Virus record (IMG/VR): IMGVR_UViG_3300049459_000094
Coordinates: 1 to 41,946 of that record
DNA length: 41,946 bases
Direction: 5' to 3' (one strand)
DNA from: a virus
Each line of letters starts with the position of its first letter. The stretch's first letter is position 1. Below, in pieces: positions 128 through 41,946 of the stretch. The position numbers were made by a program, and so were the translations under genes. The notes under the pieces were generated by a model. It had not been told where the DNA came from. It saw only the letters and a list, made by a program, of their open reading frames with translations, and did no database searches.

Positions 128-188
128 GAGGATTCATATCGAGAATTTGAGAAACCAGGAGGCCTACGCACATGCAGACCGCAATTGA
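1..188 (+). CDS. small single-pass membrane protein, C-terminal part (gene starts at 41768)
   Basis: This is the 3' part of a 79-residue gene whose GTG start is at 41768. The in-frame codons here begin at base 3 and end in TGA at 186-188. The full protein has a Cys-rich N-terminus, one hydrophobic segment at about residues 38-57 (QLAAVVTGIVITCFLFVAL) and a charged C-terminal tail. The last bases overlap the ERF start at 172 by 17 bp, as in a translationally coupled operon. Function is unknown. Its position as the last gene before the recombination genes places it in the repressor-controlled plus-strand operon. Confidence 0.75.
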   Translation, partial: DVQKSDTPEPTVSFPWRYQLAAVVTGIVITCFLFVALSAANERIHIENLRNQEAYAHADRN

Positions 189-1041
189 GACTACCAAGCA
201 GGCGCCGGCCGTTCCTGCGCTTTCCGAAAGTGCAGCGATCATCCAGGTGATAGAGCGCGCCGCGATGAACCCGAGCGTCGACATTGACAAAATGGAACGC
301 CTTTTGCAGATGCAAGAGCGGATCATGGAGCGCAATGCCAAGGCGGCTTATGCGGCTGCGTTTTCCGAGATGCAGCCAGAGTTGCCAGAGATCCCCGAGA
401 ACGGAAAGGGCCATAATAATGCGTCCTATGCCCTTTGGGAAGATATCAACGATCTGATCAAGCCGGTTATCGCCCGTCACGGCTTCGGCATCAGTTTCCA
501 GACCGGCCGCGATGGCCCGAACATCACCGTCACCGCCATCCTGACACACAGGGAAGGTCACGGCGAGCAAACGACGATGATCCTGCCGGTTGACGCCAGC
601 GGCTCAAAGAACGCTGTGCAGGCTGTCGGCTCGTCCACCAGCTACGGCAAGCGCTATACGGCTTCCGCATTGCTGAACCTGACATCTCGCCACGAAGACG
701 ACGACGGCAAAGCATCCGGCCCGGTAGACAGAACACCGCCTCCGTCCAAGTCGAGCATGTCGCTCAAGAAGAAGGACGAGAACGGCAAGGATTCTTGGGA
801 CCGGCTTGTTGATGAGCTGCGCAAGGATTTCCTCGACTGCAAAAGCACGATCGCTCTTGGAAAACTCCGCGGCGATTATCGCGAGAAGGCCCGCGAACAG
901 CGTTGGCCGCGTGCATGGCTTGAAGCACTTGGAAACGAGTTCGACACGCACGAAGAGACCTTGGAGAAGGCAGAGAAGGCCAGCAAGGATAGCTACGGCA
1001 ATCGCACGATCGACCTTAATGCCGACGAGGTGCCTTTCTGA
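172..1041 (+). CDS. erf: ERF-family single-strand annealing recombinase
   Basis: The 289-residue protein resembles the ERF superfamily, as in P22 Erf: phage proteins that bind single-stranded DNA ends and anneal complementary strands. They help circularise or recombine the genome. The ERF core spans about residues 60-180 and includes the stretch SYALWEDINDLIKPVIARHG and the glycine/serine-rich GSSTSYGKRYTASALL block typical of the family. A charged linker and a C-terminal tail, DLNADEVPF, follow; the acidic end is like those of single-strand-binding partners. The start at 172 is preceded by AGGAGG at 157-162. The TGA overlaps the next ATG by one base. Ref-like and RusA-like nucleases elsewhere in the window complete a recombination set. 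Confidence 0.88.
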   Translation: MQTAIETTKQAPAVPALSESAAIIQVIERAAMNPSVDIDKMERLLQMQERIMERNAKAAYAAAFSEMQPELPEIPENGKGHNNASYALWEDINDLIKPVIARHGFGISFQTGRDGPNITVTAILTHREGHGEQTTMILPVDASGSKNAVQAVGSSTSYGKRYTASALLNLTSRHEDDDGKASGPVDRTPPPSKSSMSLKKKDENGKDSWDRLVDELRKDFLDCKSTIALGKLRGDYREKAREQRWPRAWLEALGNEFDTHEETLEKAEKASKDSYGNRTIDLNADEVPF

Positions 1042-1553
1042 TGTCGGCAAAGCCCCTCTATTTTTTCACAAGCCGTACCAACCGGGGTCATAGGATGCCG
1101 ATCCCGGTTGAGGTGCAATTGGAAGAAAAGTCAATGCAGATCCCGTTTTGCGGATGCCACATTTGGACGGGATCGCTGACGCCTAGGGGGTATGGCAAAC
1201 TGTCGTTCGACAACGCCACGCTATTAGCACACCGCGTTTCTTGGGAAGTATCCAACAATACAAGAGTTCCTGACGGCATGTACGTTTGTCATCGATGCGA
1301 TGTTCCGAGCTGCATCAATCCAGATCACCTTTTCGTCGGCACTGCGCGACAAAATAGTGCTGACATGGTGTCAAAAGGCCGGTCTTGCCGGGGCGCCAAA
1401 CAGTCTCGATCAAAACTTTACGATCACAGTGTGAGACACATTCGTCGGACCGACATAGGGACGAAATACCTATCGGAAATGTACGAGGTTTCCATAACAA
1501 CCATTAAACACATCAGGTCTGGAAAGGGGTGGCAGCATGTCAAAGAGGTCTGA
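1041..1553 (+). CDS. HNH endonuclease (HNH_3 / homing type)
   Basis: The protein has 170 residues. A Cys-rich start (CGCHIWTG) is followed by LAHRVSWEV, then VCHRCDVPSCINPDHLFVGT and DMVSKGR. This is the standard HNH_3 arrangement: a first His, zinc-coordinating Cys pairs and the asparagine-histidine of the beta-beta-alpha metal finger. The C-terminus (YLSEMYEVSITTIKHIRSGKGWQHV) looks like a small DNA-binding helix-turn-helix, common in free-standing homing nucleases. It overlaps ERF by one base and the next gene by 17 bp, so it is embedded without breaking the operon. Its role could be selfish homing or DNA processing. Confidence 0.85.
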   Translation: MSAKPLYFFTSRTNRGHRMPIPVEVQLEEKSMQIPFCGCHIWTGSLTPRGYGKLSFDNATLLAHRVSWEVSNNTRVPDGMYVCHRCDVPSCINPDHLFVGTARQNSADMVSKGRSCRGAKQSRSKLYDHSVRHIRRTDIGTKYLSEMYEVSITTIKHIRSGKGWQHVKEV

Positions 1554-1953
1554 CGGCCCTGTATATGCATTTGTTAGGCAAGGAAATATTTTGAGGCCTG
1601 AGATGGAATACGACCTGCAGGCCCTGTTTGGGGTAGCCGAAGGTCAACGAGTTCGGGTCGAAGTCAAACAATGGCGCCGACTTTCCCGTCTCAGAGCCTA
1701 TTGGGCCACGCTCCACGACTGCGTTCAAGCAACCGGCTGTGCACCTCACAAGGAAGCGCTCGACGCCTATCTGCGGCCCGCTGTGGGCCACTGTGACTTC
1801 ATCCGCATGCCGAACGGATCATTCCAGGCTATCCCGCGCGCCATCAATACGAAGGACTGCGACGAGCCGGAAATGATTTCCTACTTCCTCGCGGTTGAGG
1901 AACGGCTTGCGAAGGACTTCGGCTTTGTCAGTGAACGGAGGATTGCAGCATGA
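1537..1953 (+). CDS. phage protein, possibly NinB/DUF1367-like recombination accessory
   Basis: The protein has 138 residues. The N-terminal half ends in RVRVEVKQWRRLSRLRAYWA, which recalls the basic strand and helix of the NinB or DUF1367 families (lambda-type recombination accessory proteins). The likeness is weak and the assignment is mainly by position, between ERF and other recombination genes. The middle part (LRPAVGHCDFIRMPNG) and the acidic CDEPEMISYFLAVEERLAKDFGF segment would fit a small alpha/beta protein. It starts inside the end of the HNH gene and overlaps the next start by 4 bp. Confidence 0.6.
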   Translation: MSKRSDGPVYAFVRQGNILRPEMEYDLQALFGVAEGQRVRVEVKQWRRLSRLRAYWATLHDCVQATGCAPHKEALDAYLRPAVGHCDFIRMPNGSFQAIPRAINTKDCDEPEMISYFLAVEERLAKDFGFVSERRIAA

Positions 1954-3238: not shown

Positions 3239-3633
3239 GCGGATTCCGCATAGCCCACGCCTCCCCAGATCCGACGCCGAAGAAGCGGCCAGCAAAACGT
3301 GCCAGTTACCTTAAATTCCTGCACGAATTGCCATGCTGCATTACCGGCAGGACCGGCGTCCAGGCTGCTCACGTCTCGTTCTCCGCCCCCTGGTATGGAT
3401 CGTATGGACGAGGCAGAGGAACGAAGGTTCCCGACCGGTTCGCACTTCCTCTCTGTGCCGAGGAACATGACCTGCAGCATTCCTGCAAGCTTGGCTCTGA
3501 GAGCGATTATTGGGACGCCAAGGGTATCAATCCCCATGAGTTGGCAAATACGCTCTGGGGTCTGTTCTGCGACTATGACGAGTACGAGGCAATCGAGCGC
3601 TGCACCGCGCGGATTAGGCAGGGGATTAAGTGA
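3235..3633 (+). CDS. Ref/DUF968-type HNH nuclease
   Basis: The protein has 132 residues. CCITGRTGVQAAHVSF, then GRGTKVPDRFALPLCAEEHDLQHS, is the conserved pattern of the Ref / DUF968 group. P1 Ref is a RecA-dependent HNH nuclease that cuts within displacement loops. The His of AAH and the His residues of EEHDLQH are the likely metal ligands. The C-terminus is helical. The neighbourhood contains ERF and the integrase, which fits a recombination-enhancing role. Cleavage specificity cannot be read from sequence. Confidence 0.75.
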   Translation: MSGFRIAHASPDPTPKKRPAKRASYLKFLHELPCCITGRTGVQAAHVSFSAPWYGSYGRGRGTKVPDRFALPLCAEEHDLQHSCKLGSESDYWDAKGINPHELANTLWGLFCDYDEYEAIERCTARIRQGIK

Positions 3634-4130
3634 TGCAGGTCACCAAGGAAATGATCGACAAGGCCACCGCCGCAATCGATGTGTTCCCGTACAACACATT
3701 GCCGGATGGCTGGATACACCGGAGCATTGCCGAGGTTGCCCTCTCCGCCGCCCTCTCAAGCCGAGAGGTGACGGAAGAGCCGGTAGCGTGGCTACCGAAG
3801 CGGAGATGGGAGCGGATGACGGCTGCCGAACCATGGCTGACGAATATCATCTATTCCGAGGATCAGAGTAAATTCTTCGAATGCGTCCCGCTCTACGCCA
3901 GCCCCTTACCTCTCCCAAGCGAGGAGAAGATGAGAGAGGCGCTGGAACGGTCGATGGTCGCGATTGACGACTGGCTTCACGTCTATGCCGAGGATGAATG
4001 CAGGCCGGAAGATGTGGCGGCGTCCAGGGCTCGCCTGAATGAACATGGCACGCTCGCCTATATCGCTGAGGTTCAAGCCGCGAACCGTGCCGCCCTCTCC
4101 GAAATGGAACATGGGAAGGTGACGGAATAA
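3633..4130 (+). CDS. accessory phage protein with PVAW/PLYASP signature
   Basis: The protein has about 165 residues. I place the start at the ATG at 3633, sharing its first base with the upstream stop. The segment EEPVAWLPK, followed some 40 residues later by PLYASPLP, is a signature found in many small accessory genes of prophages, often near DUF551 proteins; their function is unknown. A helical C-terminal half follows (EKMREALERSMVAIDDWL). The gene overlaps the next start by one base. Confidence 0.65.
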   Translation: MQVTKEMIDKATAAIDVFPYNTLPDGWIHRSIAEVALSAALSSREVTEEPVAWLPKRRWERMTAAEPWLTNIIYSEDQSKFFECVPLYASPLPLPSEEKMREALERSMVAIDDWLHVYAEDECRPEDVAASRARLNEHGTLAYIAEVQAANRAALSEMEHGKVTE

Positions 4131-4312
4131 TGCCAAAGCCTCTCGACATAACGCAAAGGCAGGTTACGGCGCTGATGAAGGCTGCCAAGGCAACCGGCTG
4201 TGCTGTCGAGTACGAATTGTCAACCGGCGTTATCAGAATTCTCCCTGATATACCCGTTTCGCGCCCGCAGAAAAATAAACCGCTGGACATCAAGTTCGAA
4301 GGGCACTTTTGA
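4130..4312 (+). CDS. small protein beside integrase
   Basis: The 60-residue protein begins with a helix (DITQRQVTALMKAAKATGC) and continues with a strand (AVEYELSTGVIRILPD). It lies directly upstream of the integrase, with 6 bp between its stop and the integrase ATG. Such short genes sometimes encode the recombination directionality factor. This one is less basic than a typical excisionase, so that role is only a possibility. Confidence 0.6.
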   Translation: MPKPLDITQRQVTALMKAAKATGCAVEYELSTGVIRILPDIPVSRPQKNKPLDIKFEGHF

Positions 4313-4318
4313 TGCGGA

Positions 4319-5365
4319 ATGCCGAAGCACACAAAATACCCGTTTCTTCACCATGAGAAGACGCGCCATGGTAAATTCGTCTGGTATTTTAGGAAGCCAG
4401 GCGAGCCACGGATTCGACTTCCGAATGACTATGGAAGCGATGGTTTCTGGGAAGCCTACCATGCGGCCTATTCGGGCCACCATACCCCGGACAGGAATGA
4501 CCTGAAGGAATACACCTTTGCGTGGCTCGTTCAGGAGTACATGCAAAGCTCACGCTGGAAATCCTTGGCGAAAAGCACGCAGGAAATGCGCAGAAGGATT
4601 CTTGAGGGTATGCTCGCCACGGCGAAGGGCGATATTCGGGCCGTGACAAAATCGCATATTCAGAAGGGTTTGGATGCCCGCGCCAAAACGCCGCACGCCG
4701 CGAACAACTACCTGAAGACGATGAGACAGATGTTTGCATGGGCAGTCGAGCGCGATTTCCTTGAAGAGAATGTCGTCGCCAAGGTCAAGAAACTCCCTGA
4801 CGAAACGGACGGGCATCACGTCTGGACCGTCGAAGAGGTGAAGAGATTTCAGAAAAAGTGGGGGCTTGGGACCAGAGAGCGCGTTGCAATGGACTTGCTG
4901 CTCTATACCGGTCTACGGCGCGCCGACGCTGTTCTTGTCGGGCCTAAAGACATTGAGGACGAATTGCTCGTGCTCAAGACGAAGAAGACGGGAACGCCTG
5001 TCTATATCCCGATTCTACCGGTTCTGCGCACCACGCTTGATGCAGGGCCGATCGGGGAAACATTCATTACGGGGGAACGTGGCAGGGCTCGCGTCTCCGA
5101 AGGATTCGGGACTTGGTTTGCGATTGCCTGCAAAGCAGCGAAAGTTCCAGGCAGAGCGCATGGGCTGCGAAAAGCCGGAGCTACTTTGGCCGCAGAAAAT
5201 GGCGCGACCCCTCACGAATTGTCAGCTTTGTTCGGCTGGACGAATACGAGAATGGCCGAAATCTACACTCGCGAGGCCGATAGAAAGAAGCTTGCGAGGA
5301 GTGCAATGGATAAAATGGGCGCTCGCACCGGGGTAAAAAGTGCGGATAACGACATTGAAAAATAA
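4319..5365 (+). CDS. int: tyrosine-recombinase integrase
   Basis: The protein has 348 residues. It catalyses site-specific insertion and excision of the phage genome. The N-terminal part (about 1-60) resembles an arm-binding region and about 65-160 a SAM-like core-binding domain. The catalytic domain carries Arg200 (YTGLRRAD), a Lys at about 222-223, His281 and Arg284 (HGLR), Trp307 in the H/W box (LFGWT) and Tyr316 (EIYTRE). All catalytic positions are present, so it should be active. It is the last gene of the plus-strand operon and lies next to the putative attP. Because its transcription could come from the repressor-controlled PL, it may be expressed mainly on induction or infection. Confidence 0.93.
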   Translation: MPKHTKYPFLHHEKTRHGKFVWYFRKPGEPRIRLPNDYGSDGFWEAYHAAYSGHHTPDRNDLKEYTFAWLVQEYMQSSRWKSLAKSTQEMRRRILEGMLATAKGDIRAVTKSHIQKGLDARAKTPHAANNYLKTMRQMFAWAVERDFLEENVVAKVKKLPDETDGHHVWTVEEVKRFQKKWGLGTRERVAMDLLLYTGLRRADAVLVGPKDIEDELLVLKTKKTGTPVYIPILPVLRTTLDAGPIGETFITGERGRARVSEGFGTWFAIACKAAKVPGRAHGLRKAGATLAAENGATPHELSALFGWTNTRMAEIYTREADRKKLARSAMDKMGARTGVKSADNDIEK

Positions 5366-39489: not shown

Positions 39490-39828
39490 ATGGGTGAGCA
39501 CGAACGTATCTGGCTTGAGCCAGCACCCGGCGCCGACGAAGACTATGGGCAGCAGTGGTGCCAAGACAACGTATGGGGCGATGATGCGATTGAATACGTT
39601 CGCGCCGATCTCGTCGCCTCTCTCCCCACCAAAGCAGACTACACCGATACGAGGGGTCAGTGGCGCGTATTCGAAGATATCAACCCCGGATGGCGGGGAA
39701 TTGAGATCGAAGGCGACAACGATGCCGACCCGATCCTGTACCCGCAGAAGATCAGCCGCGAACGCCTAGATAGGATCGTGAGCGCGCACAACGCCGCCCT
39801 CTCTCCCAATACGGAGACAGCGCCATGA
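39490..39828 (+). CDS. chimeric accessory protein carrying an in-frame 42-bp repeat
   Basis: The 112-residue protein has an N-terminal module (RIWLEPAPGADEDYGQQWCQ, then DDAIEYVRADLVA) and then a 13-residue repeat-encoded linker at about 44-56 (SLPTKADYTDTRG). A C-terminal module (ISRERLDRIVSAHNAAL) ends in SPNTETAP, which also occurs at the end of the Lar-like protein. The start has only GTGAG nearby. It overlaps the MazG-like gene by 4 bp. The modules are common in phage accessory proteins. Confidence 0.65.
   Translation: MGEHERIWLEPAPGADEDYGQQWCQDNVWGDDAIEYVRADLVASLPTKADYTDTRGQWRVFEDINPGWRGIEIEGDNDADPILYPQKISRERLDRIVSAHNAALSPNTETAP
39615..39656 (+). repeat. 42-bp coding repeat, copy 1
   Basis: The copy reads SLPTKADYTDTRG in the frame of the 39490-39828 gene. 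It differs at two bases from copies 2 and 3. The flanking proteins are unrelated. Confidence 0.88.
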
Positions 39829-39830
39829 GC
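39792..39830 (+). repeat. 39-bp gene-end cassette, copy 1
   Basis: It encodes the last residues of one gene (AALSPNTETAP) and includes its stop and the start codon of the next gene. A single base separates it from copy 2 at 41412-41450. Confidence 0.85.
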
Positions 39831-40460
39831 ATTACACTTTGGAAGCCAGAGCCTAATCTGATCACCCATCAGGCCCTCGGCAAGCTGTTGGAAGAACTGG
39901 GTGAACTCAGCTCTATCGTGGCACGCTGCCTCATTCAGGGTATCACCGAAAGCGAGCCGGTCACTGGCGCAACCAATTACAGCCAGTTGCAAAAAGAGAT
40001 GAGTGACGTTGCGGCTGCCATCGACTGGCTCAAGGAGGTGTCTGGCGTCTCGATCGACACCGATCGCATGTACTCGAAGCTGGACGGCTATCGGCGCTGG
40101 CAGAAGATGCTGGAAGCCGACATGGCGACCGCATCTCTCCCCACCAAAGCAGACGACACCGATACGAGGGGATCGGCATCGCCTTATCCGCGTTTGGTGG
40201 CGGACGACTGGTTCAGCCAAGTTGTCTCCTTCCTCGTCAAGAATGACATGCTGGATGCTCGCGACGAATACGACATCAGCGACGTTATGGGGGCGCTCGA
40301 AGACAACTATGAGCCCATGCTCGTCAAGGCCGTCCAAGGCATAGCCGACGATTACATGACCAGTGAGAAGCATCACCCTGGCTATGTATTGATACCGACT
40401 TCCAAATTCGAGGCGATCTGCGCCGCTATTGCCGCAACCTCGACGGAGGGACGGGCATGA
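39825..40460 (+). CDS. MazG-like pyrophosphohydrolase fused to an unknown C-terminal domain
   Basis: The 211-residue protein has an N-terminal MazG-like domain (about 1-100) with the metal-binding EELGE at 23-27 and EMSD at 58-61. Such enzymes hydrolyse nucleoside triphosphates and may modulate (p)ppGpp or deoxynucleotide pools. The repeat-encoded linker (104-116) joins it to a separate helical module (VADDWFSQVVSFLVKNDMLD, then EYDISDVMGALEDNYEPML). The gene starts at a cassette shared with the last gene of the operon. Catalysis is inferred, as the domain is compact. Confidence 0.75.
   Translation: MSITLWKPEPNLITHQALGKLLEELGELSSIVARCLIQGITESEPVTGATNYSQLQKEMSDVAAAIDWLKEVSGVSIDTDRMYSKLDGYRRWQKMLEADMATASLPTKADDTDTRGSASPYPRLVADDWFSQVVSFLVKNDMLDARDEYDISDVMGALEDNYEPMLVKAVQGIADDYMTSEKHHPGYVLIPTSKFEAICAAIAATSTEGRA
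40130..40171 (+). repeat. 42-bp coding repeat, copy 2
   Basis: The copy encodes SLPTKADDTDTRG between the MazG-like and C-terminal modules. It is nearly identical to copy 3, with identity reaching a few bases beyond the unit (GGGGATC). Confidence 0.88.
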
Positions 40461-40966
40461 ATTTGTCAGAACTCATCCGCCTCTATGGCGATGACAAAGT
40501 GCAATTCCAGAACTTGGACCAGTGCACCGAAGCCCTGAACATGAACAAGGGCATCACGAAAATCACCTTCGGCACAGAACAGCCTATCGGCCTCGACGGC
40601 ACGGCCAAGCTCGGACTCGTCATGTGGTTCGACCGTGATCAGGTCGCCAAGATCATTGCTGACGAAAAAGCCGGCGTTACCTCTCCAGGCCCGATTGCCG
40701 CAGTGGAGGCTGATCGCGCCGAACAGTGGCGTCAGAGGCGAGATGCCGAAGGAATCAGGGATGCGGCGCGAGCAGCTGCGGATAGCCTTAGACATGAGCG
40801 AGACGCTTTGACTGTCGCTCTCACACAGATTTCCCAGCCGTCCGATTGCGGATGCAAGCCGTGCACCGGTCAGTGCAGGTCTGAGGAATCCCTATCGATA
40901 GAACTTGACGCCATTCGGGATATCGCCCGCGCCGCCCTGCGTGCTGTGAATGGGGGTGAGCTATGA
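40457..40966 (+). CDS. hypothetical accessory protein
   Basis: The 169-residue protein has an N-terminal part (ELIRLYGDDKVQFQNLDQCT and GITKITFGTEQPIGLDG) of a type frequent in phage accessory regions. A helical middle (EGIRDAARAAADSLRHERDA) and Cys-containing stretch (CGCKPCTGQCR) could bind a metal ion. It overlaps both neighbours by 4 bp. Function is unknown. Confidence 0.65.
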   Translation: MNLSELIRLYGDDKVQFQNLDQCTEALNMNKGITKITFGTEQPIGLDGTAKLGLVMWFDRDQVAKIIADEKAGVTSPGPIAAVEADRAEQWRQRRDAEGIRDAARAAADSLRHERDALTVALTQISQPSDCGCKPCTGQCRSEESLSIELDAIRDIARAALRAVNGGEL

Positions 40967-41448
40967 GCGATATCCTGAACTGCCCGTTCTGCGGCGGCGA
41001 ATCCGAGCTGCACCAAACCGGGAAATACGAACTCACGCTGAAGTGCGTAGGCGTCCAGCCTAGCGGATTGCGTGGTTGTGGCCCGAAGCTCGTCCAGAAG
41101 GTGCTGCCAAACCGTCACACGCTTGAATGGCTTGGCGGGAAGATGACCGAGACGTGGAACCGTCGCGCCTCTCTCCCCACCAAAGCAGACGACACCGATA
41201 CGAGGGGATCAGAGCCGACCGTGAAGGCGTGGACGCCGGTGCCATATGACCACGAAATCACGCTTCAATCCGTGAAGGCAGCAGATAGCAACACCGATGG
41301 TGCAGATCCTCGCGCAGTCTTGCTGGCCGTACTTGGTTGCACTGAGACATGGGTGGGTGATGCCAGGATCATCGGCAACGTTCGAGCCGTCGATATCGCT
41401 GTAGCACTCCGCGCCGCCCTCTCTCTCAATACGGAGACAGCGCCATGA
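40963..41448 (+). CDS. Lar-like restriction alleviation protein with extra C-terminal module
   Basis: The 161-residue protein has an N-terminal domain with zinc ligands (NCPFCGGESELHQTGKYEL, C28 region and a further Cys) ending in MTETWNRRA, the typical close of the Lar family. Family members relieve host type I restriction (Lar of Rac prophage). A repeat-encoded linker (70-82) and then a different C-terminal region (AVLLAVLGCTETWVGDARII) follow, ending in AALSLNTETAP. The extra module is unlike standard Lar, which is shorter. Confidence 0.7.
   Translation: MSDILNCPFCGGESELHQTGKYELTLKCVGVQPSGLRGCGPKLVQKVLPNRHTLEWLGGKMTETWNRRASLPTKADDTDTRGSEPTVKAWTPVPYDHEITLQSVKAADSNTDGADPRAVLLAVLGCTETWVGDARIIGNVRAVDIAVALRAALSLNTETAP
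41166..41207 (+). repeat. 42-bp coding repeat, copy 3
   Basis: The copy encodes SLPTKADDTDTRG directly after the conserved Lar-like terminus (ETWNRRA). It therefore marks a junction between domains. Confidence 0.88.
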
Positions 41449-41450
41449 GC
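41412..41450 (+). repeat. 39-bp gene-end cassette, copy 2
   Basis: This encodes AALSLNTETAP and includes the overlapped stop and the start of the next gene. It matches 39792-39830 at all but one base. Confidence 0.85.
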
Positions 41451-41771: not shown

Positions 41772-41946
41772 TTTGCCACCTACGCGATCTCCACGAATGC
41801 GGTTGCCCCGCTGACACCTGCGACGTTCAGAAGTCCGACACCCCGGAGCCTACTGTTTCATTCCCTTGGCGATACCAACTCGCTGCGGTCGTAACCGGTA
41901 TTGTCATCACATGCTTTCTCTTCGTTGCTCTGTCTGCTGCGAATGA
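41768..41946 (+). CDS. small membrane protein, N-terminal part (continues at 1-188)
   Basis: The GTG at 41768 shares GTGA with the previous stop. Together with positions 128-188 it makes 79 residues: a Cys-rich start (ICHLRDLHECGCPADTC) followed by a membrane helix. Cysteines in this arrangement suggest metal binding or disulfides. The gene joins the early operon to ERF across the circle. Confidence 0.72.
   Translation, partial: MICHLRDLHECGCPADTCDVQKSDTPEPTVSFPWRYQLAAVVTGIVITCFLFVALSAAN
41820..41946. repeat. contig-end overlap, copy 2 (identical to 1-127)
   Basis: This is the second copy of the terminal overlap described at 1-127. Removing one copy gives a unique circle of 41,819 bases. 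Confidence 0.85.

Follow-up and report, generated by a model that had tools for sequence, protein, structure and literature searches.

An in-frame 42-nucleotide repeat at the domain joints of three neighbouring early genes in a temperate Rhizobium-type phage

The stretch of DNA analysed here (the window; 41,946 nt, IMG/VR record IMGVR_UViG_3300049459_000094) is a complete temperate phage of Rhizobium type, with kinship to the Rhizobium phages RHph_I1_23 and RHph_N3_2. A 127-bp direct terminal repeat (positions 1-127 equal 41820-41946) indicates that the assembly is circularly closed at ~41.8 kb. The phage codes for an integrase, a CI-type repressor, an Erf-type single-strand annealing recombinase (172..1041, + strand; phrog_155, E 5e-47) and a NinB/Orf-type recombination mediator (1537..1953, + strand; phrog_319, E 1.1e-7). 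Its Erf is 81% identical to that of RHph_I1_23. The genes discussed below form a cassette zone in the early region, with erf directly downstream on the circular map. In the relative G002 and in the Rhizobium plasmid pSK06, gene A is directly followed by a gene for a small membrane protein and then by erf, from which it follows that genes B to E were added here or lost there.

Genes A to D are all read from the + strand. Gene A (39490..39828; 112 aa) is composed of an N-terminal module running from GEHERIWLEP to YVRADLVA, the first copy of a 42-nt unit that we call the linker, and a C-terminal module, A_C. Gene B (39825..40460; 211 aa) carries a MazG-like N-module, the second linker copy and a C-module ending in DDYMTSEKHHPGYVLIP..KFEAI. 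Gene C (40457..40966; 169 aa) is without a linker, and its N-terminal half corresponds to phrog_6851. Gene D (40963..41448; 161 aa) begins with a Lar-like zinc-ribbon module that ends in WNRRA, followed by the third linker copy and a C-module, D_C. The three copies share one reading frame and lie within a 1.6-kb stretch of these early genes, all on the + strand: copy 1 (ASLPTKADYTDTRG) at 39616..39657 (residues 43-56 of gene A), copy 2 (ASLPTKADDTDTRG) at 40131..40172 (residues 103-116 of gene B), and copy 3 (again ASLPTKADDTDTRG) at 41167..41208 (residues 69-82 of gene D). Counted with their bordering bases, the copies extend over 39615-39659, 40130-40174 and 41166-41210.

No base differs between copies 2 and 3 over 41 nt; copy 1 departs from them inside the unit at a single base (GAC to TAC) and again at the 3′ edge. 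Identity is 98-100% inside the unit; in the 60-nt flanks it is 23-33%, which is the random level and rules out the remnant of a tandem duplication of whole genes. The original prediction of an in-frame 42-bp repeat in three different genes is therefore confirmed. The repeat cannot be ascribed to chance, because 200 codon-block shuffles of the window gave no exact direct repeat longer than 18 nt. The shared frame is weak evidence by comparison: with every forward frame of the unit open, three copies would agree in frame about once in nine on that basis alone. No synonymous difference separates the copies in the 12 core codons. The unit was also correctly described as non-palindromic, its ends forming only a weak stem of 5-7 bp (-6.6 to -7.8 kcal/mol). 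All three possible products of linker-by-linker exchange keep an open frame as a fused gene.

A second repeat, D4, had escaped the original prediction. It is 39 nt long, and its two copies each cover a 3′ gene end (that of gene A and that of gene D) together with the start of the following gene. Copy 1 (39792..39830, + strand) reads ...AALSPNTETAP, stop, GGAG and the overlapping ATGAGC start of gene B; copy 2 (41412..41450, + strand) reads ...AALSLNTETAP, stop, GGAG and the start of gene E. The two copies bracket the block B-C-D, and genes A and D accordingly have two common islands, the linker and the gene end, around unrelated C-modules of unequal length. The exact D4 core has no match in the viral contigs. 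Gene ends in relatives are similar to D4, not identical, and follow the form CGCCGCCCTCTC....GGAG....GCCATGAC.

The modules on both sides of the linker recur elsewhere. Homologues of the gene A N-module carry other C-termini (L102, 77%; L004, 78%; L132; L141), and in L102, L004 and L141 the YVRADLVA module runs into different, charged tails. A homologue of A_C is present in L140; Sphingomonas phage Birtae has A_C within a small protein.

The MazG-like label of gene B (phrog_4856, E 8.6e-21, residues 2-103) is approximate. The module occurs in seven other loci (L005-L008, L120, L146 and L147), and in every one of these similarity stops near the linker boundary, to be followed by nothing or by an unrelated tail. 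The C-module of gene B (DDYMTSEKHHPGYVLIP) stands after other N-terminal parts in L009, L010, L001, L145 and L139. Compared with the PDB, the predicted gene B structure gave no confident match, those to the MazG-like entries 2oig and 2gta being weak. L010 has a 544-residue open frame (3258-4892) that contains the DDYMTSEK module and further segments, including two GWVLVPAE-type pieces; it is apparently a multi-module early phage protein.

Homologues of gene C with other C-terminal ends are found in I1_23 (L002), L143 and L148. The Lar assignment of gene D is likewise approximate, its match to PF14354 (24.2 bits) falling just under the Pfam cut-off, which the close homologue L144 clears. L144, the clearest case of re-pairing, is 68% identical to the gene D N-module up to WNRRA and then continues as an R67-type dihydrofolate reductase (DHFR; PF06442, E 5e-25). 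This gene (L144:1269-1712, - strand), in a Hyphomicrobiales genome, is thus an in-frame fusion of a Lar-like zinc ribbon to a type II (R67-type) DHFR. In L134 the Lar-like module is followed by another tail, and in Agrobacterium phage Atu_ph07 a homologue of D_C forms the beginning of a gene.

All six modules of genes A, B and D hence occur elsewhere without the linker, alone or beside other neighbours, and the same pairing of N- and C-modules as in any of the three genes was seen in no homologue found. Judged by these comparisons, the modules are truly mosaic and have been shuffled between phages. On the N-terminal side, joint and linker match in position, give or take a few residues, and the MazG-like and Lar homologues often end right at this boundary. 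That the unit follows the end of recognizable modules is borne out by the same break point in other genomes with other neighbours. It had further been proposed that the unit precedes different C-modules. The C-modules do differ. Homology becomes detectable only ~6 (gene A), 27 (gene D) and 46 (gene B) residues past the linker, so that the downstream joint can be placed with less certainty than the N-terminal one. The peptide is not confined to orthologues of fixed domain order, three different module pairs being joined by it here.

Structure prediction points to an unstructured linker. In the models of genes B and D it is a coil, with the final helix of the N-terminal domain immediately before it. 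In gene B (12-row alignment) the coil follows the helix at residues 79-103, and pLDDT is below 50 from residue 111, inside the linker (103-116); in gene D, where the alignment is poor (4 rows), pLDDT is below 50 from residue 72 (linker 69-82). The C-modules of both genes were modelled at low confidence. The linker is predicted to act at present as a flexible spacer between domains.

As support for its view, the original prediction looked to the same linker joining further pairs of domains. This was not found. The peptide pattern, with all codons allowed, is absent from 2.9 million viral contigs, and the exact first half of the linker DNA has no match in them. The shorter pattern TKADxTDTR gave three matches in the contigs, which we read as chance because the flanking sequences are unrelated. 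No linker DNA was detected by blastn in 50,697 phage records, and with up to two mismatches none beyond chance occurs in 397 genomes of the order (Hyphomicrobiales). In 293 genomes of the family (probably Rhizobiaceae, as surmised from likeness to a Sinorhizobium replicon) a search with up to three mismatches returned one linker match, as against eight for a reversed control pattern. The DNA of the region was also compared with 395 genomes, two candidates being scored per genome, a comparison that is weak for the linker alone. Short BLAST matches that seemed to enter the linker (L149-L157) turned out to be unrelated genes. No relative carrying one or two linker copies was found in these sets, from which records very near the window may have been left out, so that sibling phages may exist. 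The linker appears, as far as sequence searches reach, to be private to this genome or at most to one phage lineage.

Nor does the linker behave as a recombination device that shuffles phage domains in general, as had been suggested. In other genomes modules are swapped at these same boundaries although the linker sequence is missing there, and it cannot therefore be a general shuffler of these domains. The observation itself is confirmed, and its interpretation as a recombination linker is partly supported.

The best explanation, and in our judgement the probable one, is that the linker is a short coding patch recently copied at the DNA level among three neighbouring chimeric early genes, as a by-product of recombination and not as a dedicated element. 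Identity limited to 42 nt, the lack of synonymous change, the differing modules and the clustering all point to recent DNA copying rather than to an old conserved peptide or to the divergence of duplicated genes. The patch would have originated a single time, where two modules meet in the hypervariable cassette zone upstream of erf, and would then have spread by annealing or template-switch recombination of the Erf/NinB type, joining new modules on either side. Its persistence may be due to tolerance of such a polar, flexible, in-frame spacer at a domain boundary. Reported pairing segments measure 23-27 bp (Red-beta) and 31-34 bp (RecA), and phage D3 Erf matches Red-beta in efficiency (PMC3945230). 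The linker identity (41 nt between copies 2 and 3) is long enough for phage recombinases, and an annealing recombinase is encoded. Given this recombinase and the short pairing segments, we infer that copying of the patch at joints is the most likely origin. As 41 identical nucleotides also exceed the reported pairing length of phage annealing proteins, further in-frame exchange among genes A, B and D through the linker would be possible. Three copies with differing modules on both sides within 1.6 kb are unusual, however, and count against a mere by-product.

Another origin would make the linker a relic of gene ends. The unit would then combine the C-terminal tail of formerly separate genes with a Shine-Dalgarno region (CTCTCTCCC...GAGGGG), and loss of the stop codon would have fused each gene to the one downstream. 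This agrees with the frequent termination of MazG and Lar homologues at the linker boundary and with gene ends of relatives, which show the pattern CGCCGCCCTCTC..GGAG..GCCATGA. The alignment of the linker to D4 also scores above 99.4% of shuffles, but this weak likeness was singled out in hindsight. In genes A and B the C-modules have no well-placed in-frame start past GAGGGG, and stop loss alone does not account for one and the same tail in three genes. We regard this origin as unlikely.

The linker could instead be an element dedicated to recombination within coding sequence, or a small mobile one, inserting in frame or acting as a domain-swap site, with an effect like that of the palindromic elements of Rickettsia. 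Three in-frame copies at joints where the modules differ on both sides, and the fact that every exchange product remains in frame, are what such an element would offer. Yet it occurs nowhere else in the viral contigs, phage records or order-level genomes, with a family-level match at chance level; no homologue has an uninterrupted version of gene A, B or D, and neither notable terminal inverted repeats nor target duplications were seen. A dedicated element is accordingly improbable. A narrower version is an active swap site specific to this phage, at which Erf annealing would make new in-frame module combinations in the population and for which D4 would be the matching downstream site; we consider this quite doubtful as well. 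The data lend no support to a dedicated mobile shuffling element, though there may be an incipient local one.

Selection on the peptide would provide a different reason for its repetition, namely a binding or localization tag that gives three early proteins one common partner. The frame is kept in all three copies, and the sequence is polar and predicted to be unstructured, as short linear motifs often are. Since all frames of the unit are open, the kept frame is weak evidence, and the peptide is absent from homologues of all modules. The 12 core codons are free of synonymous differences, so that nothing in them favours selection on the peptide over recent copying, and there is little likelihood that a tag is involved.

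Contig ends repeating 127 bp are the usual sign of assembly at a word length of 127. The window is an assembled virus record, and an assembler could in principle have repeated a 42-nt error or chimera; a word length of 127, as the contig-end repeat implies, should not be confused by a 42-nt repeat, and the genes overlap correctly (ATGA) across all joints, so that an artefact is extremely improbable.

Recent copying of a patch can be placed beside several known systems. Boundary sequences that target homologous recombination have been mentioned for temperate phages (PMC3974807), and mosaicism driven by Rad52-like recombinases has been described (PMC3945230). The linker is like such sequences in its short identity at joints, its position in a mosaic early region of a phage with its own Erf, and a length above the minimal pairing segment. 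Unlike them it is intragenic and lies between domains, one genome having three in-frame copies, and other phages, which lack the sequence, exchange modules at the same boundary.

The three genes also resemble the domain mosaicism surveyed by Smug et al. 2023 (PMC10684548), in which unrelated proteins share single modules and shuffling is ongoing; the Lar-like module, joined through the linker to D_C here and to R67 DHFR in L144, is a case of this kind. Whereas that survey dealt with aligned fragments of at least 50 aa, the shared piece here is the 14-aa joint itself, and the word "linker" is absent from the survey's text (PMC10684548).

Like the palindromic elements of Rickettsia (RPE), the linker is a repeated coding unit whose frame is maintained in several genes that are otherwise unrelated. 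An RPE is palindromic and about 150 bp long; these elements are spread genome-wide and inserted into otherwise intact genes (PMC10969869), unlike the linker, which is 42 nt, non-palindromic, clustered in 1.6 kb and located at joints of different modules. Neither a palindromic hairpin, nor continuous homologues across the site, nor recurrence across the genome or related genomes was found for it.

It has long been debated whether phage mosaicism proceeds via short shared joint sequences or whether joining is random and selection acts afterwards. The linker, a recent in-frame patch that is identical at three joints beside erf, offers a compact and directly testable case. Found in one genome only, it stands as an illustration of domain shuffling and reveals no general shuffling device.

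Among the relatives examined for repeats, no intragenic repeat at domain joints was found. Their repeats comprise one of 35 nt in G004 (gene ends), one of 26 nt in G003, one of 21 nt in I1_23 (gene starts), and tandem repeats in G006. D4 may be likened to the start-associated sequences (SAS) of cluster K mycobacteriophages, which are 13 bp long and occur many times per genome just upstream of starts (PMC3203893), in that it is a short repeat just before phage start codons. Unlike SAS it is 39 nt long, present in two copies and partly coding, and the linker itself is not start-associated. The 35-nt repeat of G004 is that genome's own and lies near gene ends (L108, 9014 and 9925); in G006 the tandem repeats have units of 27 nt and 12 nt (L114:19124-19390 and L115:2552-2786).
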